Source of the DNA: Pseudorhodoplanes sinuspersici
GTDB taxonomy: Bacteria; Pseudomonadota; Alphaproteobacteria; Rhizobiales; Xanthobacteraceae
Reading direction: 5' to 3'
Length of the DNA: 64,000 nt
Assembly: GCF_002119765.1 (NCBI RefSeq)
Contig: NZ_CP021112.1
Location: forward strand, 3,962,501-4,026,500
Positions 8,219-40,062 of the stretch are shown piece after piece (the first letter of the stretch is position 1; each line of letters begins with the position of its first letter). The notes beneath the pieces were generated by a model that searched no databases, was not told where the DNA came from, and saw nothing but the letters and a program-made list of their open reading frames with translations. The translations under genes and the position numbers were made by a program.

Positions 8219-8232
8219 CACCTGCGTTCATT

Positions 8233-8259
8233 GACAAATCCCATATTATAGGATTTGTC
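8233..8259. promoter_or_regulatory. Inverted repeat, candidate IclR operator
   Basis: Two perfect 9-base arms, GACAAATCC and GGATTTGTC, are separated by a 9-base AT-rich spacer. The repeat lies between the iclR stop codon and the amidohydrolase start. A TTGACA sequence overlaps the left arm (8231-8236) and could be a -35 element. No U-tract follows, so a terminator is unlikely. Confidence 0.5.
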
Positions 8260-8328
8260 TCGCTCTAGACCTTCGAGGCTTCGGCGTCTTTTCCGCGCTG
8301 AAATCCCTAAAACCAGTGCGAGAATCCC

Positions 8329-9351: not shown

Positions 9352-9353
9352 TC

Positions 9354-22357: not shown

Positions 22358-22377
22358 TGTTATGTTATAACATAACA
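22358..22377. promoter_or_regulatory. Zur-like operator upstream of the TonB receptor gene
   Basis: The sequence TGTTATGTTATAACATAACA is a perfect 20-base palindrome. It closely resembles alphaproteobacterial Zur sites (AT-rich core GTTATAAC). It ends 47 bases before the receptor start codon and touches the possible -10 element, a position suited to repression when zinc is plentiful. Other Fur-family regulators cannot be excluded from sequence alone. Confidence 0.78.
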
Positions 22378-22424
22378 TTTTCTGAGAATAAGTCTCAAAG
22401 GCTGACGCGGGGGCGTACGAATAA

Positions 22425-24833
22425 ATGAGTGTGAGGTTCAGCAACGCTGCTGTTTGGTATTCGAGCCCTCGAGACTCTCAAGCAAAGAACGGATCGTTGA
22501 GGCTGGATTCGCGGGCGGGCCATGGCGGCTCGTTACGAGCGGCGTGGCTTTCCGGCGCGGCCGCGATCCTCGCCGTGACAGGCGCCTATGGACAGGATGC
22601 GCCACCCGATACTGGTCCCGACAACACCGTGCTGCTGGAGACCATCACCGTCACATCTCCACGCCAACGGGCTGCGGTGCCGGTCAGACCTGTGGCGGGT
22701 AGTGGGTCGCCCATCTCATCCGATTCAACCCCGTCGACCGTGGCCAGCAGCAATCCCCCGTCGTTCGAGGCGCAGCAGCAGCGGTTTGAACGACGGCCGG
22801 GCGCGGAGACGGTCGTGTCCGTCACTGAGCGTGAGCCCGGCAAGCTGACCAATCTAGGTGATATCTTTCAGGAAACGCCGGGCGTCTTCATCTCGGAAAG
22901 CGGTACGTTCATCTCGATGCGTGGCAGCGATATCGCCAACGAAGGGTCGCGCAACGGTCGCGGCATCCGTGCCTATCTCGATGGCTTTCCCCTTGGTCGA
23001 ACAGAAGCGGGCTTCACCAACGCGCTGATTGATCCGCTCGCGACCGACTACGTTGAAGTTTATCGCGGCGGCAACAGCCTGCGCTATGGAGCGCTCGCCA
23101 CGGGCGGCGCCCTCAACTTCGTTTCCAAAACCGGCCGGTCGGCGCCAGGCACCGGCCTCACTGTGTTCGGCGGCAGCTTCGGCACGCTTCAGACACAGAT
23201 CGAGAATGGCGGGGTTAGAGGACCATTCGATTGGTACCTGCAGGGCAATCTCTTCGAGAAGGATGGCTATCAGATCCACACCAGCCAGCAAGACTACCGC
23301 TTCAGCGGTAATGTCGGTTGGAATATCACGCCCAACATTGAGAGCCGTACGTTTTTTGCCGTCGGCAAGACCAACCTGGACATGGGGGATTCAGTCCCGC
23401 TTGATCAATTGGAGACACAACGACGCGGCGCCGTCGGCTGGGCGACGCAATATAACGCCCGTCTCGATTTCGAATATCAGCGGCTCGCGAACCGGACGAC
23501 GATCCACGACGGCAATACGACGTATGAACTCGGCAGCTATTTCCTGAATACGGGACTGGATCATCTGCCAGTGCCGATGGCTGGTATCATCGATTATGGC
23601 TGGCGCGATATGGGCCTGTCAGGCCGGGTCGAGCACAAGACTTCGCTTGCCGGCCTTCCGACTGAACTCGTCGCTGGTCTGCGCATCGGCTACACCGAAG
23701 GCGATTTCGATCGCTTTCAGCATCTCAATCAGGGCACGGCGAAGGGCCGCCAGATCTATGACTGGGCCTTCTCATCATGGCTCGTCGAAAGCTATGCCGA
23801 AAGCGCGATCGAGATTTTGCCGCGCGTTCGCCTGTTCACTGGCTTGCAGGGTGTCTTCACCACCCGCGATCTCGATGACCAATATCGAGGCGGCGCGGTC
23901 GCAACGGTGCCGCCGATTCCCGGTAGCATCCCGCAGCCTGGGCGCGTCAATGCCCTTCTGGGTTACGAACGCGATTTTCAGGCGCTGAATCCGAAATTCG
24001 GCGTCAACTTGGAACACACCCGCAATCACTTCGTGTTTGCGAATGTGACGCGCAGCTTTGAGGTGCCGAGCGGCGCCGACTTCGCCAATATTTTCGCCGT
24101 TGACCGCGGCCTGGGGCGAATCCCGCAACTGGATGCACAGTCGGCCTGGACGTGGGAAACCGGTGTGCGTGGTGGATGGGAGCGCTTCAAATACGACATT
24201 ACATTCTACCACATGCGCCTGCATAACGAGATCCTTACCCGATGCGCAACGGAAATCGGCGCCGGTTGCACGTCCTCTAATACAGTCGCCTTCAATGCCG
24301 ATCATACGATTCACAACGGCTTCGAGCTTGGCGTGAAAACTCTGCCGTTCGTCAATGTGTTCAAGGACGGAGATTCGGTCTTTGCCAACGTTGTCTGGAA
24401 TTATACGGACTTCCGTTTCGATGATGATCCCGTGTTCGGCAACAACCGGCTTCCGGTCATCCCTGAACATCAGCTTTACAGCGAATTGGGTTATCGCCAT
24501 CCGTCCGGATTTTTTGGTTCGGTCAATCTGCGGTATCTGAGCGATCGTTCCACCACATTCGATGGGTCGGGTGGAGATGCTTTCGTCGTGCCGGGCTATA
24601 CGCTGCTTGGCGCCAAGGTGGGCTGGCAGGCACCCGACAAGTCCTGGTCGGTGTTTGTCGAGGGGCGAAACCTCTCCGACGTTGTGTATGCCGCGGACTT
24701 TGCTCCGAGCCCGACTGTGCCCGTTACACAGAATCCTGGCCGGCCGCCGTTCACCTTCACCCCGACGCGTTCGCCCATGGTGAAGCCTGGTGAGGGACGC
24801 GCCGTCTATGCAGGCTTGTCCGTGCGGTTCTGA
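22425..24833 (+). CDS. TonB-dependent outer-membrane receptor
   Basis: This 802-residue protein forms an outer-membrane beta-barrel gated by a plug, importing a chelated metal or similar ligand using TonB energy. A hydrophobic export segment, AAWLSGAAAILAVTGAYGQ, lies at about residues 37-55. A possible TonB box, LLETITVTSPRQ, follows near 70. The plug domain (LGDIFQETPGVFISESGTFISMRG, near 140) precedes a C-terminal barrel ending in Phe (VYAGLSVRF), as usual. The N-terminal cytoplasmic-like extension before the signal segment is long; a later start is possible. The Zur-like box and the chelatase-like gene downstream suggest zinc or a zinc-like metal complex as cargo. Confidence 0.92.
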   Translation: MSVRFSNAAVWYSSPRDSQAKNGSLRLDSRAGHGGSLRAAWLSGAAAILAVTGAYGQDAPPDTGPDNTVLLETITVTSPRQRAAVPVRPVAGSGSPISSDSTPSTVASSNPPSFEAQQQRFERRPGAETVVSVTEREPGKLTNLGDIFQETPGVFISESGTFISMRGSDIANEGSRNGRGIRAYLDGFPLGRTEAGFTNALIDPLATDYVEVYRGGNSLRYGALATGGALNFVSKTGRSAPGTGLTVFGGSFGTLQTQIENGGVRGPFDWYLQGNLFEKDGYQIHTSQQDYRFSGNVGWNITPNIESRTFFAVGKTNLDMGDSVPLDQLETQRRGAVGWATQYNARLDFEYQRLANRTTIHDGNTTYELGSYFLNTGLDHLPVPMAGIIDYGWRDMGLSGRVEHKTSLAGLPTELVAGLRIGYTEGDFDRFQHLNQGTAKGRQIYDWAFSSWLVESYAESAIEILPRVRLFTGLQGVFTTRDLDDQYRGGAVATVPPIPGSIPQPGRVNALLGYERDFQALNPKFGVNLEHTRNHFVFANVTRSFEVPSGADFANIFAVDRGLGRIPQLDAQSAWTWETGVRGGWERFKYDITFYHMRLHNEILTRCATEIGAGCTSSNTVAFNADHTIHNGFELGVKTLPFVNVFKDGDSVFANVVWNYTDFRFDDDPVFGNNRLPVIPEHQLYSELGYRHPSGFFGSVNLRYLSDRSTTFDGSGGDAFVVPGYTLLGAKVGWQAPDKSWSVFVEGRNLSDVVYAADFAPSPTVPVTQNPGRPPFTFTPTRSPMVKPGEGRAVYAGLSVRF

Positions 24834-24885
24834 CATGATCGCGTGCGATCTGCGCCGCTCTGGCCGCGAGGCCGCGTCATGTCTC

Positions 24886-24928
24886 GCCTCGGAGCGATCG
24901 GCTTTCCTCCCACCGGTCGTTCCGAGGC
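24886..24928. other. Long hairpin between receptor and CobN-like genes
   Basis: Bases 24886-24901 pair with 24913-24928 in a 16-base stem that includes two G-U pairs, around an 11-base loop CTTTCCTCCCA. It lies in the 153-base gap between two genes of one apparent operon. There is no following U-tract, so it is probably a processing or stability element rather than a terminator. The loop contains CCTCC, which is complementary to a ribosome-binding site. Confidence 0.6.
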
Positions 24929-24986
24929 CGTGCCTTCCATTGCGGCGTGAGTTTGCTTCAACACCATCAAAGGCAAATATCTGATC

Positions 24987-27900
24987 ATGTTACGACGCGC
25001 GCTGCTGGGCTTTGTTATCGGCTTTACTGGATTGATATCGGCTGCAGCGCAGACGTCTGTGCCTCTGCCCGGCGCACATCGCATCCGCATCATCACCGTC
25101 GATTTCGTTCTGCCAGGCAAACTCGAGAAACTCGGCCGTTTCGCCGAAGATGCTCGTCTTGGTCTCGATCGATTGTATGTCGAGACAGTAAATGGAGAGC
25201 CAGACACGTGGCTTGAAGGTGCTGACCTCATCCTCCTCGATACGCCGCGACCGACGGATCTTACAAAAGTACAGGAACGGCTTGGCTCCGCTCTTGCCAA
25301 TACTCGCACGCCTTGGGTCCGCATCGGTGGCGGTCCGCCAGCCTTCGGCAATATTCCGCCGCAACACGCGCGGCGTCTCATCGCCTATTATGCCGGCGGT
25401 GGTGAAAGAAATATCCGCGCGATGTTTGATTACATCCGGGCATGGCGCAATGGCACGGATACGGCAGCGGCAATGCCACCGTCGGCGCTGCCGGCGATTG
25501 GATTCTATCATTCTGCCGCACCCAGACTATTCGATCATCTGGATGGCTATCTGCAATGGGCGCGTGATCGCTGGAAGAGCGACGGCCCACGGGTTGCCTT
25601 CGCGATCCACTCCGGTCTGATCTCCGGAATGGAAACACAGGTGATCGATGCGCTAATCGCACAAAGCGAAGCGCGGGGCTTGTTGCCGCTTGTCTTCTGG
25701 TTCGACGCCGCTGATCCCGATGCACTACAGAAATTGCTCGGTCCGGCCAAGGCCGATGTCCTCGTCATCGCGACCCACCTTCAGAACGGTCCCGCGCGCA
25801 AGGCTGAATTCCTTAAGCTGAATATCCCCGTGTTGCAGACTGTCAGCTATCGCGAGGGCGACCCGGAGGCTTGGGCAAAGGCCGATAGCGGCATGTCACC
25901 GCGTCTGGTGGCGCCGTTTCTCGCGTTGCCAGAAAGCTGGGGCGTCAGCGATCCTATGGTCATCGACGCTGTACGCAACGGTGAGCCGGTCCCGATGATG
26001 GGCCAGGTCGATGCGTTGCTTGCGAAAGTCGAGCGCCTTGCAACGCTCCGGCATAAGCCGATCGCTGACAAGCGCCTGGCACTGATGTTCTGGAACTATC
26101 CGCCGGGTGAAAAGAATATCTCTGCATCGAATCTCAATGTCCCCCGGAGTCTGGAGAAGCTCACGGCAGCGCTCGCGACCGCGGGCTATGATGTTGCGCC
26201 GACCACGGAGCTGCGACTGATCGAGGCCATGCAGGCGATGCTCGAGGCTATCTATCACCCGGAACGTTTATCGGCGCTTCTCGCGGATGGACTGGCTGAC
26301 ACGATATCGGTGGCACGTTATCGCGCCTGGTTCGATACATTGCCGTCCGCGCGGCGTGATGAGATCCTCGCCCGTTGGGGTGCTCCGGAAGACCAACAAG
26401 GCCTCATTGAGATCGGCGGCGAAAAGCGGTTTGTGATCCCACGTCTCGCAATCGGCAAGCTTCTGATCATGCCGCAGCCACCACGCAGCGGCAGCCCCGG
26501 CAGTGATTATCACGATGCCAAGCAGCCTCCCGGACACGCTTATCTTGCGGCCTATCTTTATCTGCGTGAGATGGCGGGTGTGGATGCACTCATCCATTTC
26601 GGTACGCATGGCACGCAGGAATGGACGCCTGGTAAGGATCGCGGGCTTTCTGCTGGAGACTATCCGTATCTTGCTGTTGGCGATCTGCCGGTTTTCTATC
26701 CTTATATCCAGGACAACATCGCTGAAGCGATCCAGGCCAAGCGGCGAGGCCGTGCCGTTACTGTGAGCCACCAGACGCCACCTTTTGCGCCGGCTGGACT
26801 TTATGACGAGTTGCGCGATCTCCATGCCAGGATTCACGAATATATCCAACTCGATGACGGAGCCGTCCGCGATCGTACGGCGGCGGACATTCGTGCACTA
26901 GTGATCCGGGCCAATCTTCATCGCGACATGAAGTGGGACGAGACGCGGATGGAGACAGATTTTCCGGCCTTTCTCTCGGCGTTACATGATCATGTGCATG
27001 AACTCGCCCGGCATGCCATGCCGCTCGGACTGCATACATTCGGGGAGGCCGCATCGCCCGAGCACCGGCTTGTCACCGTGATGCAGCAACTCGGTGAGCC
27101 ATTCTATCGTCGCCTCGGGACGGAGCCGGACGAGCTCTTTGCCAGCGACTTCAAGGCACTTCAGGACAGCGCGCCTTACCGCATGTTGCACCGGCATCTT
27201 CGCGACGATGTGCCGCTCTCCGATGTTTCTGATCGTGACCTTCGGTCGATGCTGGAGCGTGCAGTTGCTCTCGACCGGCATCTCGCAGAAACGAACGAGA
27301 TCGAGGCATTGCTCGCAGGTCTCGCGGGTGGTTTTGTCGCGCCGGGGGCAGGCGGCGATCCGATCCGCGATCCGGATGTGCCGAGCGGGCGCAATTTGTT
27401 TCCGTTTGAGCCAGACAAAATACCAACCCGCGCGGCCTATGAAGCGGGTGGCAAGGTTTTGCAACAACTGATCGATGCCTATCGCGCTGAGCACAATGGT
27501 GAGACGCCGGACAAGCTCGCGTTCAGTCTGTGGTCCGGCGAGACCATGCGTCACCTCGGCGTCGTCGAAGGCCAGATTCTCCAGGCACTTGGCCTTCGGC
27601 CAGTCTGGAATGACGGCGGCCGCGTGACGGGCCTTGAGATCGTTCCCGCCACCGAGCTTGGACGTCCGCGAATCGATACCGTGTTGCAAGTCACGAGCGT
27701 CTATCGCGACCAATTTGACGGGTTCATGCGACTTCTTGCTGATGCCATTGCGCGGCTCGCCGCACTAGACGAGCCGGACAACACGATTGCCCGCAACGCG
27801 CGGGATGTCGCGCGCAAGCTCGTCGGGCAGGGAATAGCAACGTCGCGCGCAACTGAGCTTGCGGCCTTGCGCTTGTTCAGCAACGAGCCAGGCGACTACG

Positions 27901-28892
27901 GCACGAGCTTGCCAGGCAAGGTGCTGCAATCGACAACCTGGGACAAACAGGAGTCGCTTGCAGACGCGTTTCTTGCGCGTCTGCAATACGCCTATGGCAG
28001 CAAGGATTGGGGCGTCCGGATTGAGGGCGGCAACTTGTTTGCCGAGCAACTGAGGGGGACGCAAGCTGCGGTGCTGTCACGCTCTTCGAAACTTCATGGC
28101 ATCCTCTCCACCGATCATCCGTTCGAATATCTCGGTGGTCTCTCGCTCGCCATTCGTCACCTCGATGGCCGGAGCCCCTCATTGTATATTGCCGACCTTC
28201 GCGAGCAGGCTTCGCGCGTCACCTCAGCTGCGCGGTTTCTCGCGGACGAGATGCGCACGCGCACCCTCAATCCACATTGGATCGGTGGCATGCAGCGGGA
28301 TGGCTATGCCGGAACGCTGGAACTGCTGAACGCGGTCAACAATCTGTGGGGGTGGCAGGTGACAGATCCTGGCACAGTGCGCGCGGATCAATGGCAAGCC
28401 ATCCATGACACCTTCATCCGCGACATGCGACAGCTCGGTCTCAAAGCTTGGTTTGAGCAACACAATCCGACTGCGCAGGCGCAAATCGTCGAGCGGATGG
28501 TCGAGGTGATCCGCAAGGGGTACTGGGATGCAACCGAAACAACGCGCCGTGAACTGGTCGAGCGATGGCGTGAATTGGCTGACCAGCATTCAGTAGATAT
28601 CGGCGAGGCTGCCACACGCGCCTTTGTCGCGGAAATGGCCGCAGGATTCGGCTTGCAGCCGGCCGTTTCGGCGGGAGCGGCACCAACTCAAGCGACTTCC
28701 AACGCCGACGATGCGCAAACAGATGCAGGTGAACAGGTCCGCGGGCAGGTTCTTCAGACAGTTTCATCGTCAAGCAGCGGCAATTCGTCGTTGTGGCGGA
28801 CATGGATCGGGGTCGCGCTGGTTTTGGTCTGTGTCTTTGCAGGCGCCGCGGTGCAGGTGCGATCCAACGCGCGGCTCAGAGTGACAGGATAA
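24987..28892 (+). CDS. Periplasmic, membrane-anchored CobN-like chelatase subunit
   Basis: This 1301-residue protein is homologous to CobN/BchH/ChlH, the large subunits of cobalt and magnesium chelatases that bind the metal and the tetrapyrrole. Family blocks are LIHFGTHGTQEWTPGKDRG (near residue 535), PSGRNLFPFEPDKIPT (near 800), FSLWSGETMRHLGVVEGQIL (near 846) and YGSKDWGVRIEGG (near 1008). Unlike cytoplasmic CobN, it begins with a signal peptide (MLRRALLGFVIGFTGLISAAAQ) and ends with a transmembrane helix (WIGVALVLVCVFAGAAVQV, near 1272), so it should sit in the periplasm on the inner membrane. No CobS/CobT AAA+ partner is nearby; instead ExbB-like and DUF2149 genes follow at 4-base spacing. 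The metal is inferred to be zinc from the Zur-like box. Confidence 0.9.
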   Translation: MLRRALLGFVIGFTGLISAAAQTSVPLPGAHRIRIITVDFVLPGKLEKLGRFAEDARLGLDRLYVETVNGEPDTWLEGADLILLDTPRPTDLTKVQERLGSALANTRTPWVRIGGGPPAFGNIPPQHARRLIAYYAGGGERNIRAMFDYIRAWRNGTDTAAAMPPSALPAIGFYHSAAPRLFDHLDGYLQWARDRWKSDGPRVAFAIHSGLISGMETQVIDALIAQSEARGLLPLVFWFDAADPDALQKLLGPAKADVLVIATHLQNGPARKAEFLKLNIPVLQTVSYREGDPEAWAKADSGMSPRLVAPFLALPESWGVSDPMVIDAVRNGEPVPMMGQVDALLAKVERLATLRHKPIADKRLALMFWNYPPGEKNISASNLNVPRSLEKLTAALATAGYDVAPTTELRLIEAMQAMLEAIYHPERLSALLADGLADTISVARYRAWFDTLPSARRDEILARWGAPEDQQGLIEIGGEKRFVIPRLAIGKLLIMPQPPRSGSPGSDYHDAKQPPGHAYLAAYLYLREMAGVDALIHFGTHGTQEWTPGKDRGLSAGDYPYLAVGDLPVFYPYIQDNIAEAIQAKRRGRAVTVSHQTPPFAPAGLYDELRDLHARIHEYIQLDDGAVRDRTAADIRALVIRANLHRDMKWDETRMETDFPAFLSALHDHVHELARHAMPLGLHTFGEAASPEHRLVTVMQQLGEPFYRRLGTEPDELFASDFKALQDSAPYRMLHRHLRDDVPLSDVSDRDLRSMLERAVALDRHLAETNEIEALLAGLAGGFVAPGAGGDPIRDPDVPSGRNLFPFEPDKIPTRAAYEAGGKVLQQLIDAYRAEHNGETPDKLAFSLWSGETMRHLGVVEGQILQALGLRPVWNDGGRVTGLEIVPATELGRPRIDTVLQVTSVYRDQFDGFMRLLADAIARLAALDEPDNTIARNARDVARKLVGQGIATSRATELAALRLFSNEPGDYGTSLPGKVLQSTTWDKQESLADAFLARLQYAYGSKDWGVRIEGGNLFAEQLRGTQAAVLSRSSKLHGILSTDHPFEYLGGLSLAIRHLDGRSPSLYIADLREQASRVTSAARFLADEMRTRTLNPHWIGGMQRDGYAGTLELLNAVNNLWGWQVTDPGTVRADQWQAIHDTFIRDMRQLGLKAWFEQHNPTAQAQIVERMVEVIRKGYWDATETTRRELVERWRELADQHSVDIGEAATRAFVAEMAAGFGLQPAVSAGAAPTQATSNADDAQTDAGEQVRGQVLQTVSSSSSGNSSLWRTWIGVALVLVCVFAGAAVQVRSNARLRVTG

Positions 28893-28896
28893 TGAT

Positions 28897-29373
28897 ATGA
28901 ATATTTTCGAATCCGGGCTTTTCGAACTATCCAAGCTCTTCCTGATGCCGGTACTCGTCCTAATCGTGTTCGCTCTCGCCTATGCCTTTATTACGGCGGG
29001 AGCTTTTGCCATGGAGGCGTGGCAACGCTTTCGGGGAACATATCAGTCTCCACTCGTTGCCTATCAGGCTACGCACACTGTCGGCAGCGAGGATCTCGAA
29101 CTTTGGATCATGAAGCGGCTGGAAAGGTTGCGGATCGTATCGCGGACCGCGCCAATGCTCGGGCTCGTTGCCACCATGATCCCGATGGGGCCGGCGCTAC
29201 TCGCGCTCGCCAACAATGATGCCAAGGCGATCGGCGAAAGTCTGGTGGTTGCCTTTTCGGCTGTCATTCTTGCGCTCGTTAGCGCATCGATCACCTTCGT
29301 TTTGTTGACGGTGCGTCGCCGCTGGCTGTTGCAGGAGCTGCGTGCCATCGAACGCCAGACGGAGCCAGCGTGA
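28897..29373 (+). CDS. MotA/TolQ/ExbB-family proton-channel-like protein
   Basis: This 158-residue inner-membrane protein has a first helix LFLMPVLVLIVFALAYAFI and two later ones (LGLVATMIPMGPALLALAN and VVAFSAVILALVSASITFVLL). The sequence RTAPMLGLVATMIPMGPAL matches the ExbB/TolQ channel signature. It lacks the long cytoplasmic insert of full-length ExbB, so it is a compact version. It starts 4 bases after the CobN-like gene and overlaps the next by one base, so the three genes form one unit. It probably couples the proton gradient to the periplasmic partner. Confidence 0.85.
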   Translation: MNIFESGLFELSKLFLMPVLVLIVFALAYAFITAGAFAMEAWQRFRGTYQSPLVAYQATHTVGSEDLELWIMKRLERLRIVSRTAPMLGLVATMIPMGPALLALANNDAKAIGESLVVAFSAVILALVSASITFVLLTVRRRWLLQELRAIERQTEPA

Positions 29374-29705
29374 TGCGCTTCCTTGCAGAGAACGATTCCG
29401 ATGACCCGATCCTGTCCGTCGTCAACCTGATCGATATCTTTCTGGTCGTTATTGCGATCCTGATGATCATCATCGTCAAGAATCCGCTCAATCCATTCAG
29501 CAGTAAGAATGTCGTCGTAGTCGAGAATCCAGGCGAAGCGGACATGCGCATCATGGTCAAGGAAGGCCAAGAACTGACGCGATACGAAACGAACGGTGAT
29601 ATCGGTGAAGGGAAGGGAGCCCGCGCCGGGGTGACCTATCGGCTTTCGGATGGGCGTTTGGTTTATGTGCCGGAAAAGCAGACGGAAACTCGTCCTGGAA
29701 AATGA
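29373..29705 (+). CDS. DUF2149-family ExbD-like membrane protein
   Basis: This 110-residue protein has a short cytoplasmic N-terminus (NDSDDPILSVVNLIDIF) leading into one transmembrane helix (IFLVVIAILMIIIVKN) and a periplasmic C-terminal domain. This is the ExbD/TolR topology, and the sequence fits DUF2149. In other genomes DUF2149 genes sit beside CobN-like and MotA/TolQ/ExbB genes, as I recall, which matches here. The Asp residues near the membrane entry could carry protons. ATG 29373 overlaps the ExbB-like stop; GTG 29370 is an alternative. It ends the metal cluster. Confidence 0.82.
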   Translation: MRFLAENDSDDPILSVVNLIDIFLVVIAILMIIIVKNPLNPFSSKNVVVVENPGEADMRIMVKEGQELTRYETNGDIGEGKGARAGVTYRLSDGRLVYVPEKQTETRPGK

Positions 29706-32121: not shown

Positions 32122-32537
32122 ATTCCCTGACGTTTGACCTCGATTGAAGGCAATGGTCAGGTAGACACTGCGTGCCAGACACCTTCGTTGACTCGTCCTG
32201 CGTCAGAATAAGTAAGGCACGTAAGATTCGGCTTGAGATCCGAACAAAAATTGCTCGATCCGGTGGCCCAGCCTCGGCCAGCGAGCGTGCCATTGCAACT
32301 CCGCCCGTGTGCGATGGTAGTCGTCAAGCGTGATCGGTGTCGGACTTCCGCCGGATCGACGCGCAGGACGTCGTCTTTTCCACGAGCAAATAGGCTGACC
32401 GAGCGCGTCCAAAGATTATACGGGCATGGCGGTGGCCGCAGTGAATACGTCGCGTATTGCGACGCAGGAACATGAATTAGCCGAAAAGTTCAATGCCGTG
32501 TTGCGGAGCACGCCCCGGTTGCACTAGCGTGGCGTTC
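32122..32537. other. 416-base gap with no supported gene
   Basis: No clear gene is seen. A minus-strand frame of 69 codons (32203-32412), ending RLGHRIEQFLFGSQAESYVP, has plausible composition but no match I recognise, and it may be chance. The gap probably contains the promoter of the helicase-fusion gene. Confidence 0.35.
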
Positions 32538-35500
32538 ATGCGCAAGGACGGGGAAACGGTCCATCTTACGGCGAGCGACCTGGTGGGGCATCTCAACTGC
32601 CGCTACCTGACAGCGCTCGATCTCTCTACCGCGCGCGGCGAGATCGCGAAGCCGTCCGTTTGGGATCCTGTCCTGGAAGTCCTGGCAGAACGCGGTGCGC
32701 AGCATGAAAAGGCTTACATCGATCATCTCAAAGGGAAGGGAGATGAGATACGCCTGATCGGCGGAATCGGCGTCGAAAAGGATGCCGTCAATAAGACCGT
32801 CGCCGCCATGAAGGGCGGTGCATCCATCGTTGTCCAGGCCGCCCTTCAGGATGGCGTATGGAGCGGGCGGGCTGACGTGCTTCGCCGCGTCGAGAAGCCA
32901 AGCGTCTTTGGCGCCTGGTCTTATGAAGTCGTTGACACCAAGCTTGCCAAGGAGACGAAGGGCGGCACAGTCTTGCAGCTTTCATTGTATTCGGAGCTGC
33001 TCGCATCGATGCAGAAGAAACTGCCCGAATTCAGCTACGTCGTTACCCCGGAGACAGGCTTCGAGCCGGAAATCTATCGGACGACAGATTATTCGGCTTA
33101 TTACCGGCGCGTGCGCCGCAGTCTTGAACAGTCGGTCGACAATGGCACGGCCGACGATCTCTATCCCGAACCGAACCCGCACTGCGACATCTGCCGATGG
33201 CGGCGACATTGCGATGAGAAGCGACGAAAGGACGATCACCTCTCGCTCGTCGCCGGAATCTCGAAAAGCCAGATTGGCGAATTGAGACGCCATGATGTCG
33301 GCACGACCGCGACGCTGGCGGAAGTTGTTCTGCCCTGGCCGTGGAAGCCGGATCGTGGCGCCGCTCAGAGCTACGAGAAAATTCGCGAGCAGGCGCGACT
33401 GCAGGTCAAGGGACGGACGGAAGGCAAGGTCATCCATGAGGCCTTGCCGATTCAGCCCGGGTTCGGGCTTTGTTGTCTGCCCGAACCGTCGCCGGGAGAC
33501 ATCTTCTTCGACCTCGAAGGCGATCCCTTCGTGCGGGGCGGCGGGCTCGAATTCTTGTTCGGCTATGCCTATCAGGACGAAAGCGGACAAGCGCAGCATC
33601 GCGCGGAATGGTCGTTCACCCGGGCCGATGAAAAAGCTGCTTTTGAACGCTTCGTCGATTTCGTCTTTGAGAGCCTCAAAACATATCCGGGCCTGCACAT
33701 CTATCACTTCGCGCCGTACGAACCGGCCGCCTTGAAGCGCCTTATGGGCCGATACGCAGCGCGGGAAGAGGAAATCGATCGCTTGCTGCGCGGCGGCGTG
33801 CTTGTCGATCTGTTCGCCGTGATCCGCCACAGCATTCGCGCCAGCGTCGAGAGCTATTCCATCAAGAAGCTGGAGCCGCTTTACGAATACAAGCGCGCGC
33901 AAGATTTGTCCGACGCCGGAAAGATACTTGCCAAGGTCCAGGCCTGCCTTGAGCTCGGCGATGTGCAGGGCATAGAAGATGCCGATCGCAAGGTCGTCGA
34001 CGCTTACAACAAGGATGATTGTTTATCGGCATGGGCATTGCGTGATTGGCTCGAAGGATTGCGCGCCGAGCTCCTCACGGGAGGCGCGACAATAGACCGT
34101 CCCGAGCCCAAGAGCGGAGACGCAAGCGAAAAGCTCACCGCATGGCAGCAGCGTATTGCTCCGCTCGTCCAAAGCCTGACGCAAGTGGCTCCGGTCGATG
34201 TGACGGACCGGACACCGGATGAACATGCACGCTGGCTTCTGGGCAATGTTCTGGATTTCCACGGCCGCGAGATAAAGGCGACCTGGTGGGAGTATTTCCG
34301 CTTGTCGGCTCTGTCCGCAGAGGAGTTGCTCGACGAGCGTGCTGCGATCTCCGGCCTGACGTTCGCCGGCAATGTTGGAGGAACAGCAAAAGCGCCTATT
34401 CACCGCTACAGCTTCCCGGCGCAGGAAACGGAGCTGCGCGGCGATGAAGATCTGCGTGCGGTCGGAGGGAAGCCGTTTGGCAAAGTTAACGCGATCTCTC
34501 TTGACGACCGTACGGTGGACATCAAGAAGCGGCAGGATTCGGCTTCACTGCACCCGGAGGCAATTTTCTCGCATAAGGTGATTGGAACAGAGGAGCAGGC
34601 AGAAGCCCTCGTGCGTATCGCCGAATATGTCATCGCAAATGGAATGAAGGGGCCGGGACGCTATCAGGCGGCGCGCGATCTCCTTCTATTCGATGCGCCG
34701 AAGATCGGTGGGCAGCCGATCAGAAACGTGGATGAGACGACGCTCAGTGCAGCGGTTCGCATCTCGCCGGCATTCGAGCCTTGTGTGTTTCCCATTCAAG
34801 GACCTCCGGGCGCGGGTAAGACGCACACCGGCGCTCGCATGATTTGCGCCCTTGTTGCAACGGGAAAGAAGGTCGGTATCACCGCGAACAGCCATAAAGT
34901 CATCCGCAATCTGCTGGATGAGATTCAGCGCGCGTGCAAGCAGAGCGGCAAGCCAATTCAGAGCATCCAGAAGCTATCGGAAAAGGCGGACGACGTTCCC
35001 GGCATCCGGTTTACGACCGACAACGCCAAAATCTTCTCTTCGCTCGGGCCCGATTGTCCGGTGGCCGGTGGAACGTCGTGGCTATGGGCTCGCCCGGAAG
35101 CTTTCGAAGCCCTTGATGTATTGTTCGTTGATGAGGCGGCGCAGATGTCGCTCGCGAACGTCCTGGCGGTGTCGCACGCGGCAAAGACGGTCGTTCTGCT
35201 CGGCGACCCGCGCCAACTCGAACAGCCATTGCAAGGCAGTCACCCGGAAGGAACGGACGTATCGGCGCTCAAGCACATCCTGGGCGAACATGCCACCGTC
35301 ACTGCCGACCGCGGGCTGTTCCTGGAAGAAACATGGCGGCTGCATCCGGAGATATGTTCGTTCACTTCTGAGCTGTTCTACGAAGACAGGCTGCGGTCGA
35401 AACCCGGCCTGCAGCAACAGGCGATCAAATCACAAAGCGGCGTGAATGGCTCTGGCTTGCGCTACCTAGCGGTCGAACATGAAGGCAATCAAAGCGCTAG

Positions 35501-35933
35501 CCCTGAGGAAGCGGACGTTATCAAGGCCTTGGTCGAAGAGATCCTTGCATCGAAGGCGACATGGATAGGACCGGACGGAGAAGAGGCTCCTGTTGCACTC
35601 GACAACATCCTGATTATTGCGCCGTACAACGCGCAAGTGTTCGAATTGCAAGATCGCTTGCCGGGTGCGCGGATCGGCACCGTCGACAAGTTTCAGGGGC
35701 AGGAAGCACCGATCGTCATCTATTCAATGACCACATCAAGCCACGCGGACGCGCCGCGCGGTATGGAGTTTCTTTACAGCGCCAACCGCTTGAACGTCGC
35801 CACGTCGCGGGCGCGCTGCGTTTGCATCCTTGTCGGCTCGCCGTCGCTGTTCGAAGCGGAATGCCGTACGCCGCAGCAGATGCAGCTTGCGAATGCCTTC
35901 TGCCGTTACTTGGAGATGGCGCAGGCAATATGA
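32538..35933 (+). CDS. RecB-like nuclease (TM0106 type) fused to an AAA/UvrD-Dna2-like helicase
   Basis: This protein of about 1131 residues has an N-terminal TM0106-type RecB nuclease (HLTASDLVGHLNCRYLTALD at residues 8-27, metal-binding Asp/Glu positions following), a predicted ribonuclease-H-like nuclease segment (DIFFDLEGDPFVRGGG, near 322) and a C-terminal superfamily 1 helicase. Helicase motifs are Walker A IQGPPGAGKTHTGARM (near 755), Walker B LFVDEAAQMSLANVL (near 865), LGDPRQLEQPL (near 895) and KFQGQEAPIVIYSM (near 1050). I start at ATG 32538, which begins the conserved N-terminus; an ATG 15 codons upstream is possible. It belongs to the defence island. Confidence 0.85.
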   Translation: MRKDGETVHLTASDLVGHLNCRYLTALDLSTARGEIAKPSVWDPVLEVLAERGAQHEKAYIDHLKGKGDEIRLIGGIGVEKDAVNKTVAAMKGGASIVVQAALQDGVWSGRADVLRRVEKPSVFGAWSYEVVDTKLAKETKGGTVLQLSLYSELLASMQKKLPEFSYVVTPETGFEPEIYRTTDYSAYYRRVRRSLEQSVDNGTADDLYPEPNPHCDICRWRRHCDEKRRKDDHLSLVAGISKSQIGELRRHDVGTTATLAEVVLPWPWKPDRGAAQSYEKIREQARLQVKGRTEGKVIHEALPIQPGFGLCCLPEPSPGDIFFDLEGDPFVRGGGLEFLFGYAYQDESGQAQHRAEWSFTRADEKAAFERFVDFVFESLKTYPGLHIYHFAPYEPAALKRLMGRYAAREEEIDRLLRGGVLVDLFAVIRHSIRASVESYSIKKLEPLYEYKRAQDLSDAGKILAKVQACLELGDVQGIEDADRKVVDAYNKDDCLSAWALRDWLEGLRAELLTGGATIDRPEPKSGDASEKLTAWQQRIAPLVQSLTQVAPVDVTDRTPDEHARWLLGNVLDFHGREIKATWWEYFRLSALSAEELLDERAAISGLTFAGNVGGTAKAPIHRYSFPAQETELRGDEDLRAVGGKPFGKVNAISLDDRTVDIKKRQDSASLHPEAIFSHKVIGTEEQAEALVRIAEYVIANGMKGPGRYQAARDLLLFDAPKIGGQPIRNVDETTLSAAVRISPAFEPCVFPIQGPPGAGKTHTGARMICALVATGKKVGITANSHKVIRNLLDEIQRACKQSGKPIQSIQKLSEKADDVPGIRFTTDNAKIFSSLGPDCPVAGGTSWLWARPEAFEALDVLFVDEAAQMSLANVLAVSHAAKTVVLLGDPRQLEQPLQGSHPEGTDVSALKHILGEHATVTADRGLFLEETWRLHPEICSFTSELFYEDRLRSKPGLQQQAIKSQSGVNGSGLRYLAVEHEGNQSASPEEADVIKALVEEILASKATWIGPDGEEAPVALDNILIIAPYNAQVFELQDRLPGARIGTVDKFQGQEAPIVIYSMTTSSHADAPRGMEFLYSANRLNVATSRARCVCILVGSPSLFEAECRTPQQMQLANAFCRYLEMAQAI

Positions 35934-36022
35934 CGCGCGGGCTAAGAATATCGGCCGTTGCTGCCTGACCATGGTACAATCGGCTATGCGACGTGATTCA
36001 ATGACCAGGCGGATGTTGACCC

Positions 36023-37651
36023 ATGCGCTTCAAGAATTTGGAGAGTTACAGGATCGGCGGGGTCGGCAGCGACATGCAGCTTGGAATTCCCCTGCCGAAA
36101 ACGCCGGACGGCCGTGTCTATCGGTACTCACCGAACGAAAATGCGCATCCGCGACTTTTTCTGCTTGGCGACCGGGTGGAAGGCTTCGCTCTCCCGGAAA
36201 CCATGAGCGCGCGTATGTCCCATATGCCGGGAACGCCCGGCACAATCTGTCCGTATAGCGGCACATTGGATGAAGACGATGCCTTCACACATCCGGACGA
36301 CGTAGCGGCAGCGCAGGAAGTGGTCGCGCACGCCGCTGCGGCCGACGTCGCTGAGGCCTTTCATGGCATGTTCGCCGATCTTGGGCGCAAATTCGCCGGG
36401 AATAAGTTCGTCAAGATCAAGCCGGGTCCGCAGCCGCATCCGAAACCTCGACCCCGTTTCGCGCGCCGCGATTTGCTGCGCGAGTTGGTATGTGACGAAT
36501 GCGGCCGCGATTACGGGGTCTTTGCGATCTCGCTGTTCTGCCCGGATTGCGGAGCGCCGAACATCCATCTGCATTTCGCCCGCGAGGCGATGCTCGTGCG
36601 GGAGCAAGTGGAGATGGCCGGCAAGCTGGGTGCAGAGCAGGGGGAACTGGCTTACCGGCTGCTCGGCAATGCGCATGAGGATGTCCTGACCGCATTCGAG
36701 GCAACTCTCAAAACCGTCTATCTCTACAAGCTCACGACGCGGCCCGCAGACGCGCCCGAGGTGAAGCCAGTCGGAAATGCTTTCCAGAACATCGAGCGGG
36801 GCCGGAAGCGTTTCGCCGAATTCGGCTTCGATCCATTCGGAAGCCTGAGTGTTGATGCGCTTGCTGTGCTCACGCTGAATATCCAGAAGCGTCATGTCAT
36901 TGGGCATAATCTCGGGATTGCCGATGCGATGTTCACCGAGCACGCGGCTGATGCGCGCCTTGGCGAAACGGTGCCCTTGGTTGGCGAGGACATTCTTCAG
37001 TTCGCGGACATCTGCAAAATGACCGTCGACCACATCGATGCGTGGCTTGCGAGCGGCGCGCTGCCTCCAAGCCGCGATGTGCCGCCTGTAAAGCCGATTA
37101 TCGCGCCTCCAGCGAAGGAGCCGGCGACATTGAGGGTCGGAAAATTAGGCAAGCTGGCCGTACGCATTGCACTATGGGTTGCGGAACGATCAGAAAAAGG
37201 CCTCGGTGATTTCATCGCCGAAGAGGAACTGACGAAGGCCTTTCCGGATTCCAGCATGGACGAGTTGGCGTTCGCCGTGGCCGAGCTTGCGAAGGACGGT
37301 TATCTGCGGACGAGCGCCGTAATCTCCAAACGCATTCTACGGATACGCGTCGCCGCCGAGCTGTTCATCACTTTCGATCCGCATGCGATAAAGACTGACC
37401 CGGCGTCGGATGTGGTTACGCTCGTGGACTTGGCGCTTGCCAGGAGCAACACGGTAGGCGTCGAAGAATTGCATGCAGCGACGGGATGGCCGCTTAGACG
37501 CTTCAATCCGGCCTTTGCTTATATGGTCTCGCAGATCGACGGACGGCGCGTTCTCGCCGGCGGGACCAATGATTATCCGGCTCGCGGCTTTTTTTTGATG
37601 GATGAGGATCGGGTTGATCTCAAGCGTTTTGCCGATCGCCTGAGGGGCTGA
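36023..37651 (+). CDS. Unknown protein with a zinc ribbon and a C-terminal winged-helix-like region
   Basis: This 542-residue protein is not recognised as a named family. Two cysteine pairs, CDECGRDYGVF and FCPDCG, form a CxxC-x12-CxxC zinc ribbon near residues 158-180, preceded by a third possible metal site CPYSG near 76. The last 180 residues (ELAFAVAELAKDGYLRTSAV and so on) look like a winged-helix or similar small DNA-binding fold. It sits between the nuclease-helicase gene (89-base gap) and the Wadjet operon, from which it is separated by a hairpin terminator, so it probably belongs with the upstream genes. Confidence 0.6.
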   Translation: MRFKNLESYRIGGVGSDMQLGIPLPKTPDGRVYRYSPNENAHPRLFLLGDRVEGFALPETMSARMSHMPGTPGTICPYSGTLDEDDAFTHPDDVAAAQEVVAHAAAADVAEAFHGMFADLGRKFAGNKFVKIKPGPQPHPKPRPRFARRDLLRELVCDECGRDYGVFAISLFCPDCGAPNIHLHFAREAMLVREQVEMAGKLGAEQGELAYRLLGNAHEDVLTAFEATLKTVYLYKLTTRPADAPEVKPVGNAFQNIERGRKRFAEFGFDPFGSLSVDALAVLTLNIQKRHVIGHNLGIADAMFTEHAADARLGETVPLVGEDILQFADICKMTVDHIDAWLASGALPPSRDVPPVKPIIAPPAKEPATLRVGKLGKLAVRIALWVAERSEKGLGDFIAEEELTKAFPDSSMDELAFAVAELAKDGYLRTSAVISKRILRIRVAAELFITFDPHAIKTDPASDVVTLVDLALARSNTVGVEELHAATGWPLRRFNPAFAYMVSQIDGRRVLAGGTNDYPARGFFLMDEDRVDLKRFADRLRG

Positions 37652-37692
37652 GACCCGTCCAGAGGAGGGGCGCATTGCGTCGTCCGGAGGGG

Positions 37693-37718
37693 AACGGCCG
37701 CCACGGCTGGCGGCCGTT
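37693..37718 (+). terminator. Rho-independent-like terminator hairpin before jetA
   Basis: AACGGCCGCCA and TGGCGGCCGTT form a perfect 11-base stem around a CGGC loop. The hairpin lies 41 bases after the stop codon of the upstream gene and 180 bases before jetA. A T-rich stretch (GGGTTTGCATTTGTT) follows, though not a clean T-run. It separates the three upstream genes from the Wadjet unit. Confidence 0.75.
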
Positions 37719-37898
37719 GGGTTTGCATTTGTTCTCTAATTGTTCCATACTTTGGGTTCCGGGACAAGCCAGAGCTCCTGATTTGGTGCGGGTAGACCCC
37801 GCCTCAATCTTGGTGTGTGCTCACCAGGGGAAAAGCGCATCAAAAGTTGCACTCCGTAATGCCTGCAGGGGCGATCCACAGACAAATCGAATGCGTCC

Positions 37899-39350
37899 AT
37901 GTCCGACCAGCGTTTCATTTCCGCCGATGCTGCGCCGCGCCTGACCAGCCATCTGCGAGCTCTGTCCTTGATTGCGCCCCTGCAGCGGGCCGAAGACAAC
38001 AAAGGAATGCTGCACGTCTCCGCCAAGACGGCGGAGCGCGTGGACATGCGCTATCTGGCTCTTGCCGCCATCGAATTGCTGATCGACCGAATGGGCGCCG
38101 GCGGAACGGCGGGCCGCGCAGAGCTGATTGAATATCTTGCGGATTTGGCACGGCTTCAGTCGCGAAATCTCTCTGACCCGGATGCGACCGCGCTGGCAGA
38201 GCATGTGTTCGACGGCTTGACCAACGCTCGCGACCGCCGCGCGCGCTTCAAGGTCCGTCTGTTCGATCCAGATCAGCCTGAGGGGGTCTTTTTCGAATTC
38301 GCATTGCTGCGAGCGGAGCCGCTCCCGGACGGGACGGTGGGTTACCGGCTGACCCAGGAAGCGATTGAAATCCATCTCAGCTTGCTGGCGCACGATCCAC
38401 TCACAGCGACGCAGGTCAGCGAGATCATCGTTGGAGAGTTTCTCAAGCGGGGACTCTACGATCATGCGGCGTCTGCGGCCGAACGGACGAGAACCAACAG
38501 TATTCGTCTTGCCGAAGCGATCCGGCTGCTTATGGCGGAAGCGCGCCGCGCCATCCTCAAGGTCATGTGGCATGAGGAGCTTGGCCCGAAGATGGAGGAG
38601 GCGCGCAGTCTGCTGGATGCGTCCATCATGCGCGAGGGCGCCATGCTGGCCCAATTGAGCGATACGGCGGCTGATGTAACGGATGAGACGGACCGCCGCC
38701 ATCTCTCGCGCATCCGCACGCTGCTGCTCGATGTGCAAACGCGTCACCGCAAGCTCATCGTCGTGGTGCAGAAGACGGCAGATGAATATTTGCACCTCCA
38801 GGCTGACACCCTCAAGCTGCGGCCCTTGGCGCGATTGCCCGATCTCGAAAATGAGATTCTCGATCCTTTGTTGCGGGCTCCGGCGAACTTCTTGATTGAG
38901 AATGCATCCGGTGTTTTTGGCGCGATTTCCGGAACGCTGCCGCCGCTTGTCCTCGACATCGCAGCCGCGGTTGCCGCATTCGAGCCGGATGTTGAAGAGG
39001 CGGGCGTCTTCGATCCGATCATTGAATTCGATGATCCTACCGTGGGGCTGGAATTGCCTTTCGACGAGGCAACCATCACGCGGGCTGAACAATTTGCACG
39101 CGCGACCATCCTCGCGACGGGAGCCATCACCCTCGGTGAGCTTTTATCGCGGGCGGCCTCGGATCGACCTGATGACGCAGCCTTTCAACGCTGTCTTTTT
39201 CTTATCCTGGAACAGGCGATCGATCCGCGCACGACAGACGTTGCCGGCGGCGCGTCGATTTTGAGCACGCGTTTCGATGCGGGGTTCGTTGAGGGCACCG
39301 ATGTGAGATTCTCGCGCGCCACGGGCGGAGGAGTTCATGCTTCCCAATGA
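37899..39350 (+). CDS. jetA: Wadjet JetA (kleisin-like) protein
   Basis: This 483-residue protein is the first of four overlapping genes in jetABCD order. Wadjet is an SMC-like complex that recognises and cleaves circular plasmid DNA; JetA is the kleisin subunit (MukF-like) bridging JetC heads. Here the assignment rests mainly on position and size, because kleisin sequences diverge. Long helical stretches with heptad-like pattern, such as EARSLLDASIMREGAMLAQL near residue 231, agree. Its stop overlaps jetB by 14 bases. Which Wadjet type it belongs to cannot be said from sequence alone, though it does not look like a typical DUF3375 type I JetA. Confidence 0.75.
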   Translation: MSDQRFISADAAPRLTSHLRALSLIAPLQRAEDNKGMLHVSAKTAERVDMRYLALAAIELLIDRMGAGGTAGRAELIEYLADLARLQSRNLSDPDATALAEHVFDGLTNARDRRARFKVRLFDPDQPEGVFFEFALLRAEPLPDGTVGYRLTQEAIEIHLSLLAHDPLTATQVSEIIVGEFLKRGLYDHAASAAERTRTNSIRLAEAIRLLMAEARRAILKVMWHEELGPKMEEARSLLDASIMREGAMLAQLSDTAADVTDETDRRHLSRIRTLLLDVQTRHRKLIVVVQKTADEYLHLQADTLKLRPLARLPDLENEILDPLLRAPANFLIENASGVFGAISGTLPPLVLDIAAAVAAFEPDVEEAGVFDPIIEFDDPTVGLELPFDEATITRAEQFARATILATGAITLGELLSRAASDRPDDAAFQRCLFLILEQAIDPRTTDVAGGASILSTRFDAGFVEGTDVRFSRATGGGVHASQ

Positions 39351-40062
39351 CGTGAAAGACGCCTCGAGACTTGTCGAATGGGGCTTGCATCCGCGTGCGC
39401 TGCCCGAAGCACATCCAGAATACCGCGATCTGGTCCGTCGTTGGATGGATGACGGAGGTTTCAAGGCCATTGTCGCTTCCGTCGCCGAAGGTCTGAAGCT
39501 GCGGGTGGTTGGTGTGAACGCGCGCACGGGCATTGTGCTGGGTACGGAAATGGAGTCCGTCTTCGCCTATACGATCTCGCGCTTCCGCCGGAACTTTTCA
39601 AATGACGACGCTGCGGTTGTGGCGCTCGTGTTGGTGGCTGCGTGCGCGACCTTTTATCCGGTACAAGATGCGCTCGACAGCGATGAGATCATGTCGCCTA
39701 GCGCGACATTGTCCGAGATCAGAGATCGTCTGACCAAGCTATGTCAGGCGTTGGAATCGCAGGATCGTACGGGCGATGCGGCAGCTGCACGCTGGCGAAA
39801 GGGCTGGCAATATATCCGGGCATTACCCGAGATCGTCGAGGATGCGCGACGGACGGCACGTAGCCACCTGCATGGCCTTGTCGGGCTGGTCCTCAATCAT
39901 CTTTTTGAAACGGGTTTCGTGGCGGTCGATGAGCGTCAAGACGGAAACCATCTTTACGTTGCCACGCCGCGTTTTCGGATGATGCTCGCAGAGCATGCCT
40001 CCGTGCCGCTTCTCGATCTGGCCCGCGGCGCCAGTGAGGCGAGGGAGAATGCTCATGCTTAA
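39337..40062 (+). CDS. jetB: Wadjet JetB (KITE, MukE-like) protein
   Basis: This 241-residue protein occupies the JetB position. In Wadjet complexes JetB is the winged-helix KITE subunit that binds the kleisin JetA. Small helical and winged-helix-like segments (GLVGLVLNHLFETGFVAVDE near residue 179) fit that role. It overlaps jetA by 14 bases and jetC by 8 bases, so it is translationally coupled on both sides. The family call is by context and is moderately sure. Confidence 0.75.
   Translation: MLPNDVKDASRLVEWGLHPRALPEAHPEYRDLVRRWMDDGGFKAIVASVAEGLKLRVVGVNARTGIVLGTEMESVFAYTISRFRRNFSNDDAAVVALVLVAACATFYPVQDALDSDEIMSPSATLSEIRDRLTKLCQALESQDRTGDAAAARWRKGWQYIRALPEIVEDARRTARSHLHGLVGLVLNHLFETGFVAVDERQDGNHLYVATPRFRMMLAEHASVPLLDLARGASEARENAHA

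Follow-up and report, generated by a model that had tools for sequence, protein, structure and literature searches.

A Proton Motor May Serve an Anchored CobN-Like Chelatase in a Putatively Zur-Controlled Operon of Pseudorhodoplanes sinuspersici

The one-contig, 5.97-Mb genome of Pseudorhodoplanes sinuspersici carries, within the 64,000-nucleotide stretch that we analyzed (C1:3962501-4026500; hereafter the window), an operon of four genes. They encode a TonB-dependent receptor (TBDT), a CobN-like class I chelatase with a predicted signal peptide and C-terminal anchor, an ExbB/TolQ-like proton-channel subunit, and a DUF2149 protein, and a perfect 20-bp palindrome of Zur type lies upstream. Across bacterial and archaeal loci, genes for the ExbB-like/DUF2149 pair are associated with genes for CobN-like proteins more generally than with genes for receptors. 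This pattern points to the chelatase, not the receptor, as what the motor drives, and motor and chelatase probably work together. We consider the chances about even that the reading as a whole is correct, namely that a Zur-repressed operon uses proton flow to strip a chelate of its metal, most likely zinc.

Organization of the Operon

Positions are those of the window; lengths of proteins are in amino acids (aa).

22358..22377, no strand: perfect 20-bp Zur-type palindrome, TGTTATGTTATAACATAACA, 47 bp 5' of the start codon of the TBDT gene
22425..24833, + strand: TBDT, 802 aa; Pfam PF00593 and PF07715 (TonB_dep_Rec 117 bits, Plug 47 bits)
24987..28892, + strand: CobN/HmuS-like class I chelatase, 1301 aa; PF02514 1011 bits; predicted signal peptide and C-terminal anchor
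24987..28892, + strand: key residues of the CobN-like protein, His541 (HFGTHG), Glu580, Asp1043-His1044-Glu1047, and His264
28897..29373, + strand: ExbB/TolQ-like proton-channel subunit, 158 aa; PF01618 27.0 bits (cut-off 22.9)
29370/29373..29705, + strand: DUF2149 (HmuV-like) protein; PF09919 94.7 bits; one transmembrane (TM) helix and a small extracytoplasmic domain

The genes are closely spaced, with 153 bases between those of the TBDT and the CobN-like protein and four between those of the CobN-like and ExbB-like proteins. The DUF2149 gene overlaps the ExbB-like gene by one base from ATG 29373, the start used by most aligned relatives, or by four bases from GTG 29370. An initial annotation, made from this DNA alone, had described the spacing with the former start and had named a TonB receptor; both descriptions hold, the latter through the TonB_dep_Rec and Plug matches. 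Near the N terminus of the receptor is ETITVTSP, which we take to resemble a TonB box. By Pfam, the four genes match TBDT, CobN, ExbB, and DUF2149 only; TonB, HmuY, and HmuT are not among them, and DUF2162 has no match in the window. The CobN-like and DUF2149 proteins are the sole matches to PF02514 and DUF2149, respectively, in the whole genome, which also encodes two ExbD/TolR genes outside the operon and three ZnuA-family binding proteins.

Neighborhoods of the Motor Genes in Bacteria and Archaea

Few Pseudomonadota encode DUF2149, and its distribution among them is patchy: it is found in 17 of 398 sampled genomes and in 3 of 101 genomes of relatives (one below the cut-off), both counts including P. 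sinuspersici itself. The bacterial set comprises 18 neighborhoods from 17 genomes, that is, all over-cut-off DUF2149 matches besides the window's; a weak match (G062/L040, 22.9 bits, below the cut-off) and a DUF2149-like stretch that stands alone in Paracoccus alcaliphilus are not among the 18, and two neighborhoods (L033 and L034) were scored with stop-to-stop frames. An ExbB-like gene and a CobN-like gene are present in 18 of 18, and a TBDT gene occurs somewhere in the stretch in 16, the stretches of L035 and L037 having none. The P. alcaliphilus stretch (L159:4280-4555) is on a plasmid beside repABC, has no annotated CobN or ExbB gene adjoining it, and is perhaps a remnant.

Archaea have no outer membrane. 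A 16S probe led to eight archaeal genomes, six of which encode DUF2149; in their phylum, 115 of 392 genomes do so. Among 26 archaeal neighborhoods from 25 genomes, an ExbB-like gene adjoins DUF2149 in all, a CobN-like gene is in the stretch in 20, and a TBDT gene is in none. Because the motor lies beside CobN-like genes in organisms that lack an outer membrane, the published role in energizing a receptor cannot be general. The motor had been linked to the chelatase in the initial annotation, and this link extends, as gene association, further than the one between motor and receptor.

Conversely, the motor is missing from loci of cytoplasmic chelatases. The phylum search for CobN and BchH returned 30 loci, of which 26 are cytoplasmic (21 CobN, 5 BchH; labeled by eye, with all six that were checked passing the matching NCBIfam equivalogs), the others being the window and L143-L145. 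ExbB-like or DUF2149 genes are in the 1.5-kb flanks of none of the 26, nor are motor genes present when nine loci (L146-L154; BchH in six, CobN in three) are viewed in wider stretches, but they are present in the flanks of L143-L145. Likewise, a C-terminal hydrophobic segment is found in 0 of the 26 cytoplasmic proteins versus 38 of 45 rows labeled as motor-linked. Two loci mark the edge of the pattern: L155 has the motor with a weak DUF2149 match, and L156, possibly truncated, has neither ExbB-like/DUF2149 genes nor a C-terminal anchor. In Trichlorobacter lovleyi and L023, a classic ExbB-ExbD-TonB set is found in the same cluster as the DUF2149 pair.

The Anchored Chelatase and Its Active Site

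The CobN-like protein covers positions 2-1089 of the 1090 of PF02514 and scores 2001 bits against NCBIfam NF004644. Its N terminus (MLRRALLGFVIGFTGLISAAAQT) reads by eye as a signal peptide and its C terminus has a hydrophobic segment (KD19 2.35), in agreement with the anchored CobN homolog of the initial annotation. It falls below the cut-off of the CobN equivalog TIGR02257 (549 vs. 822 bits), which three cytoplasmic CobNs pass. Of PDB entries, 9d26, the heme dechelatase HmuS, scores highest (421 bits), followed by CobN (9uk9) at 392 and ChlH (4zhj) at 383.

Residues were mapped on HmuS of B. finegoldii (L158), with site residues as reported for B. theta HmuS, in which site 2 comprises His538, Glu577, Asp1208-His1209, and Glu1212 (PMC12583661). 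All are kept in the window protein, as His541, Glu580, Asp1043-His1044, and Glu1047, and His254 of site 1 is kept as His264. His541, within HFGTHG, and Glu580 are also common across the wider superfamily. The second motif (LSTDHPFEYLGG) contains Asp1043, His1044, and Glu1047 and departs at three other positions from the strict HmuS form, LSLDHxxEFMGG. DHPFEYLGG is common to the window, L022, L157 (Azospirillum), L031, and L032, whereas DD..Q and forms related to it prevail in the other motor-linked bacterial proteins and in cytoplasmic CobNs (L024, for example, which may come from Pseudomonadaceae, carries DDPFQ in place of DHPFE). Aligned cytoplasmic CobNs lack the His/Glu pair that HmuS and the window have in common and are mostly of D-YYQF type there; outside the window's clade, DH..E occurs in two HmuY-linked proteins and in archaeal L114 and L115. 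In a tree that left out L034, whose open reading frame (ORF) start is in doubt, the five proteins with DHPFEYLGG form one clade (support 100), nested in a 40-row group of motor-linked rows plus L156 whose branch has a support of 87 and is not starred.

Three assignments were weighed and dismissed. A B12 cobaltochelatase is at odds with the signal peptide and anchor, the position off the cytoplasmic CobN branch, the score below the TIGR02257 cut-off, and the lack in the genome of CbiC/CobH, one marker of the B12 pathway. Filing the protein as an HmuS fails on site 1, on the Met-rich insertion, and on operon content. A common origin of DH..E in the window's clade and HmuS was rejected because the tree nests the clade among DD..Q proteins.

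Not all motor-linked proteins carry these residues. Those of L030:9419-13369, L061:10070-14410, and L099:1788-6551 are CobN-like, lack the HFGTHG histidine, and have a second motif of HPM type; they possibly act on another substrate or have a noncatalytic role.

The Zur-Type Box and Variation in Regulators

The palindrome at 22358-22377 is identical to its own reverse complement, as the initial annotation had stated. At up to three mismatches, its 18-bp core has a single match in the window (mean of 0.00 in 100 shuffles) and matches at two places in the whole genome, both perfect. The second box (L053:7199-7216) lies upstream of a small ORF (L053:6903-7178, minus strand, 91 aa, no Pfam match), after which comes a gene for a CobW-family (COG0523) GTPase (PF02492 182 bits, CobW_C 92 bits). 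We take the palindrome to be a Zur box from the known Zur consensus and from the neighbors of the two copies; COG0523 genes of the zinc-linked subset are Zur targets. A subset of this family has been tied to zinc homeostasis (PMC2770081). None of the three ZnuA-family genes is at either perfect box, and other Zur sites in the genome may thus be more divergent.

We searched 16 loci for Zur-type boxes with two consensuses and 60 mononucleotide shuffles each. Both consensuses scored above all 60 shuffles at the window, L053, L022, L031, and L030, the last of which is not in the window's clade; at L032, a member of the clade, one of the two did so. At ten loci (L024-L029, L157, L158, L161, and L162), neither scored above all 60. 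The operon is likely Zur-repressed, with Zur predicted to bind the box, and the box makes zinc a fairly likely metal for the window's copy.

Other loci have other regulators and neighbors. A cobalamin riboswitch is found in the stretch of 7 of the 18 bacterial loci (L023, L033-L036, L038, and L039), at least 7 kb off in L033 and L034 and directly upstream of the CobN-like gene in L036; none was found in the window or in the three archaeal loci scanned (L061, L101, and L108). The riboswitch of L036 (L036:3750-3902, 33.5 bits, gathering 31.5) precedes a CobN-like gene accompanied by ExbB-like and DUF2149 genes, a predicted B12-controlled version of the module. HmuY genes mark the operons of Bacteroides and Aureibacter. 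In Runella, the trio is inside hyp genes together with a nickel-permease-like protein (Pfam NicO, below cut-off), and nikR is near the trio of Azospirillum, a member of the window's clade. Locus L023 encodes, at 7993-10065, a periplasmic binding protein domain fused to CbiZ (adenosylcobinamide amidohydrolase), beside CbiK and CobN-motor genes. Since regulators, neighbors, and Zur-type boxes vary among loci, the window's copy looks like the zinc-controlled branch of a module that appears to be general. In one published account, HmuV is diagnostic of heme transport and serves no other ligand (PMC10100974); the predicted zinc-box, B12-riboswitch, and archaeal contexts speak against its use as a heme-only marker.

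The Motor Subunits

The profile of the ExbB-like family (23 rows, one being the classic ExbB of L160) matches TolQ (9avi, E 2e-9) and ExbB (5sv0, E 7.3e-8) in the PDB, and the layout of three TM segments is present as judged by eye. The DUF2149 protein has one TM helix, with Asp22 near its start; of 25 sequences, 90% or more have this Asp, and Runella has Glu. A single-sequence model places a helix at 13-37, with a mean pLDDT of 58.6 that is too poor for a fold search. The top PDB match of the DUF2149 profile is a designed protein, sc-CC-6-95, which we took as spurious. HmuU and HmuV have been called similar to ExbB and ExbD (PMC10100974), and a table of PMC9425974 ties DUF2149 of methanogens to a TolQ-like protein.

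Proposed Mechanism and Implications

Zinc starvation would lift Zur off the 20-bp box. The TBDT, powered by the ordinary TonB/ExbB/ExbD of the cell, would then admit a metal chelate, possibly a metallo-tetrapyrrole, to the periplasm, where the anchored CobN-like protein would bind it in a central cavity and the metal would be removed between His541 and His1044 by chemistry like that of HmuS. The ExbB-like and DUF2149 proteins may form a small proton motor of the Mot/Exb/Tol type that acts on the chelatase and takes the part played by the AAA+ ring (CobST, ChlID) in cytoplasmic class I chelatases. The freed metal may enter the cell through a separate importer, the genome having three ZnuA-family proteins. 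Unloading is favored over loading because of the HmuS precedent, and by this analogy removal is the probable direction. Taken jointly, a motor that works with the chelatase, removal, zinc, and a tetrapyrrole-like chelate are less probable than each part. A link between coproporphyrin and zincophores was also considered and dropped, with no literature found that joins "zinc coproporphyrin" and "TonB."

More broadly, and tentatively, with chances that we put slightly short of even, an ExbB-like/DUF2149 proton motor may drive extracytoplasmic CobN-type chelatases and de-chelatases of bacteria and archaea, as AAA+ rings drive others with ATP, with iron or heme, cobalt, nickel, and zinc served through exchange of receptors and regulators. 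This would be a third energetic class. What is new here is the census of which partner the motor serves and, with it, the possibility that class I chelatases can draw on a new source of energy. A proton-driven chelatase is a testable alternative to HmuU/HmuV as energizers of a receptor. If correct, it would explain how a class I chelatase can operate beyond the cytoplasm, in a compartment without ATP, and could explain why recombinant HmuS stops after one or two turnovers; DUF2149 would gain a function, and a zinc-controlled branch would join a family that has been studied to date for heme.

Alternative Explanations

Several observations weigh against the proposed mechanism. The strongest against dependence on a motor is that, given NADH but no motor, recombinant HmuS, a demonstrated heme de-chelatase, frees the iron of heme and makes protoporphyrin IX, for one to two turnovers, and that the reaction in lysate is reported to need no ATP (PMC12583661). 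Absence of the motor would fit the limit in turnovers, and additional cofactors are one possible reason for it listed in that paper. In the motor itself, the ExbB-like protein keeps the Thr of PxxGLxxT and has Val in place of the last-TM Thr of the classic ExbB in the alignment, a residue with a functional role. The likeness of DUF2149 to ExbD is weak: in hhalign against four ExbD/TolR proteins, Asp22 falls on their Asp at a probability of 62.5; PF02472 (ExbD) has no hit in five of five DUF2149 proteins at E up to 5, in a scan whose HMMER filters drop most matches above E of about 0.1; and neither TolR (E 0.88) nor an ExbD peptide (E 5.2) is a significant PDB match. Because hhalign aligns the Asp but the Pfam and PDB searches give nothing significant, DUF2149 is best described as ExbD-like by layout, not as a proven member of that family. 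Nor is the association with the chelatase complete in archaea. The CobN-like gene is about 8 kb away in L064 and in pieces in L116; in L062, L066, L112, and L113 the motor is present and the stretch has no CobN-like gene, as is the case for L103 and L110, both cut by contig ends; and DUF2162 is a frequent alternative neighbor (21 of 26 stretches). The analogy with HmuS is also imperfect. Met79, HGR, and Gln299 of HmuS are not in the window protein (which has Pro87, Leu265-Gln266, and Pro310), nor is the Met-rich insertion of domain IV, a feature of the HmuS family (PMC12583661); between the stretches aligned by phmmer, window residues 706-769 are left opposite HmuS 702-932. In the tree, HmuS, Aureibacter, L114, and L115 are outside the 40-row group, and HmuS does not join the window's clade. 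With HmuS outside and the clade nested among DD..Q proteins, the His/Glu pair that they share may have arisen by convergence. No Zur box was found at the Azospirillum cobN (L157). Lastly, the absence of CobS and CobT claimed in the initial annotation is true of the operon and not of the genome, where an unlinked CobS-CobT pair is found at C1:2.16 Mb (L054:6517-9468). The genome lacks CbiC/CobH, and a putative signal peptide is present on its sole PF02514 protein; a Caulobacter control likewise has CobT without a CobN match.

In the published picture of HmuU and HmuV, the pair is assigned to energizing the receptor HmuR (PMC12583661, PMC10100974). Applied here, the ExbB-like/DUF2149 pair would energize the TBDT via a TonB whose gene lies elsewhere, and the chelatase would work without a motor, as does recombinant HmuS (PMC12583661); the TBDT genes of 16 of 18 bacterial stretches agree with this. 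However, it leaves aside the archaeal stretches, where the counts are 26 of 26 for ExbB-like, 20 of 26 for CobN-like, and 0 of 26 for TBDT genes, as well as L035 and L037. A separate ExbB-ExbD-TonB set in the clusters of T. lovleyi and L023, the lack of TonB among the four genes of the operon, and the two ExbD/TolR genes elsewhere in the genome also count against it. We consider this explanation unlikely, if credible. Another possibility is that the CobN-like protein acts on cobalt or a different metal, or inserts metal, and that its control by Zur is a matter of sparing metal and not of harvesting zinc. The riboswitches of 7 of 18 bacterial stretches, the nickel genes flanking the Runella copy, nikR near the Azospirillum copy, and repression by cobalt of tested Zur-regulon genes in Pseudomonas aeruginosa (PMC13083405) are in its favor. 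Yet six of the seven riboswitch loci are in the tree and all six are outside the window's clade (the seventh, L034, is not in the tree), the window has no riboswitch and the genome no CbiC/CobH, and the His/Glu pair is missing from the aligned cytoplasmic CobNs; we consider this improbable. A motor that drives an inner-membrane metal permease (DUF2162 or HmuT-like), with the chelatase a mere neighbor, would account for the DUF2162-like genes of 21 of 26 archaeal stretches, including three of the six without CobN, and for the DUF2162 gene adjoining the pair in T. lovleyi. But DUF2162 is in 1 of 18 bacterial stretches and not in the window, while CobN is in 18 of 18, which makes this very improbable.

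Other Features of the Window

At 32493-44401 and 45571-47859, the window encodes an RNase H/helicase protein, a Prok-E2/ThiF/JAB protein, and three large ORFs (542, 483, and 1468 aa) that have no Pfam match. These parts look like a defense or mobile region.

Comparison with Known Systems

The layout of the operon has known kin, PA1922-PA1925 of P. aeruginosa and hmuYRSTUV of Bacteroidota, which the initial annotation missed. Its interpretation is partly supported, in the Zur-type box, the anchored chelatase, and the link between motor and chelatase, and fails in the absence of CobS/CobT from the organism. We searched literature on CobN with Zur, TonB, ExbB, archaea, and HmuSUV, with subscription journals mostly outside the search, and found no proposal that the pair drives a chelatase.

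Cytoplasmic CobNST and ChlHID/BchHID share with the window a protein of the CobN/ChlH family and an HFGTHG-type motif. Unlike the window, they have no ExbB-like/DUF2149 neighbors and no C-terminal hydrophobic segment, and they work with AAA+ partners (PMC7689651). The plasmid cobN cluster of T. lovleyi (Geobacter lovleyi) resembles the window in its TBDT, ExbB-like, DUF2149, and CobN genes and also holds DUF2162 beside the ExbB-like/DUF2149 pair. It differs in lying among cobalamin genes, in its DDFFQY motif, and in having an extra classic ExbB-ExbD-TonB set. In that strain, CobST is reported as not found and the role of the cobN cluster is called unknown (PMC3403914).

The operon hmuYRSTUV has, like the window, a receptor, an anchored CobN-like protein, an ExbB-like protein (HmuU), DUF2149 (HmuV), and the site-2 residues. 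The window differs in having a Zur-type box and in lacking HmuY, HmuT, Met79, HGR, Gln299, and the Met-rich insertion. For HmuS of P. gingivalis, HmuT, HmuU, and HmuV are reported as possibly affecting activity (PMC13227078).

PA1922-PA1925, described as encoding a TBDT, a CobN-like, an Exb-like, and a hypothetical protein, shares gene content and Zur control with the window, a likeness drawn from descriptions rather than from the sequence of PA1923. Zur controls these genes (PMC4542158, PMC8531726, PMC10393844, PMC11761036, PMC13083405) and binds the PA1922 promoter (PMC8531726), and their transcripts rise 147-, 122-, 45-, and 56-fold, respectively, in a znuA mutant, and their role is called undetermined (PMC4542158). 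The association of the motor with an anchored chelatase bears on this unexplained target of Zur.

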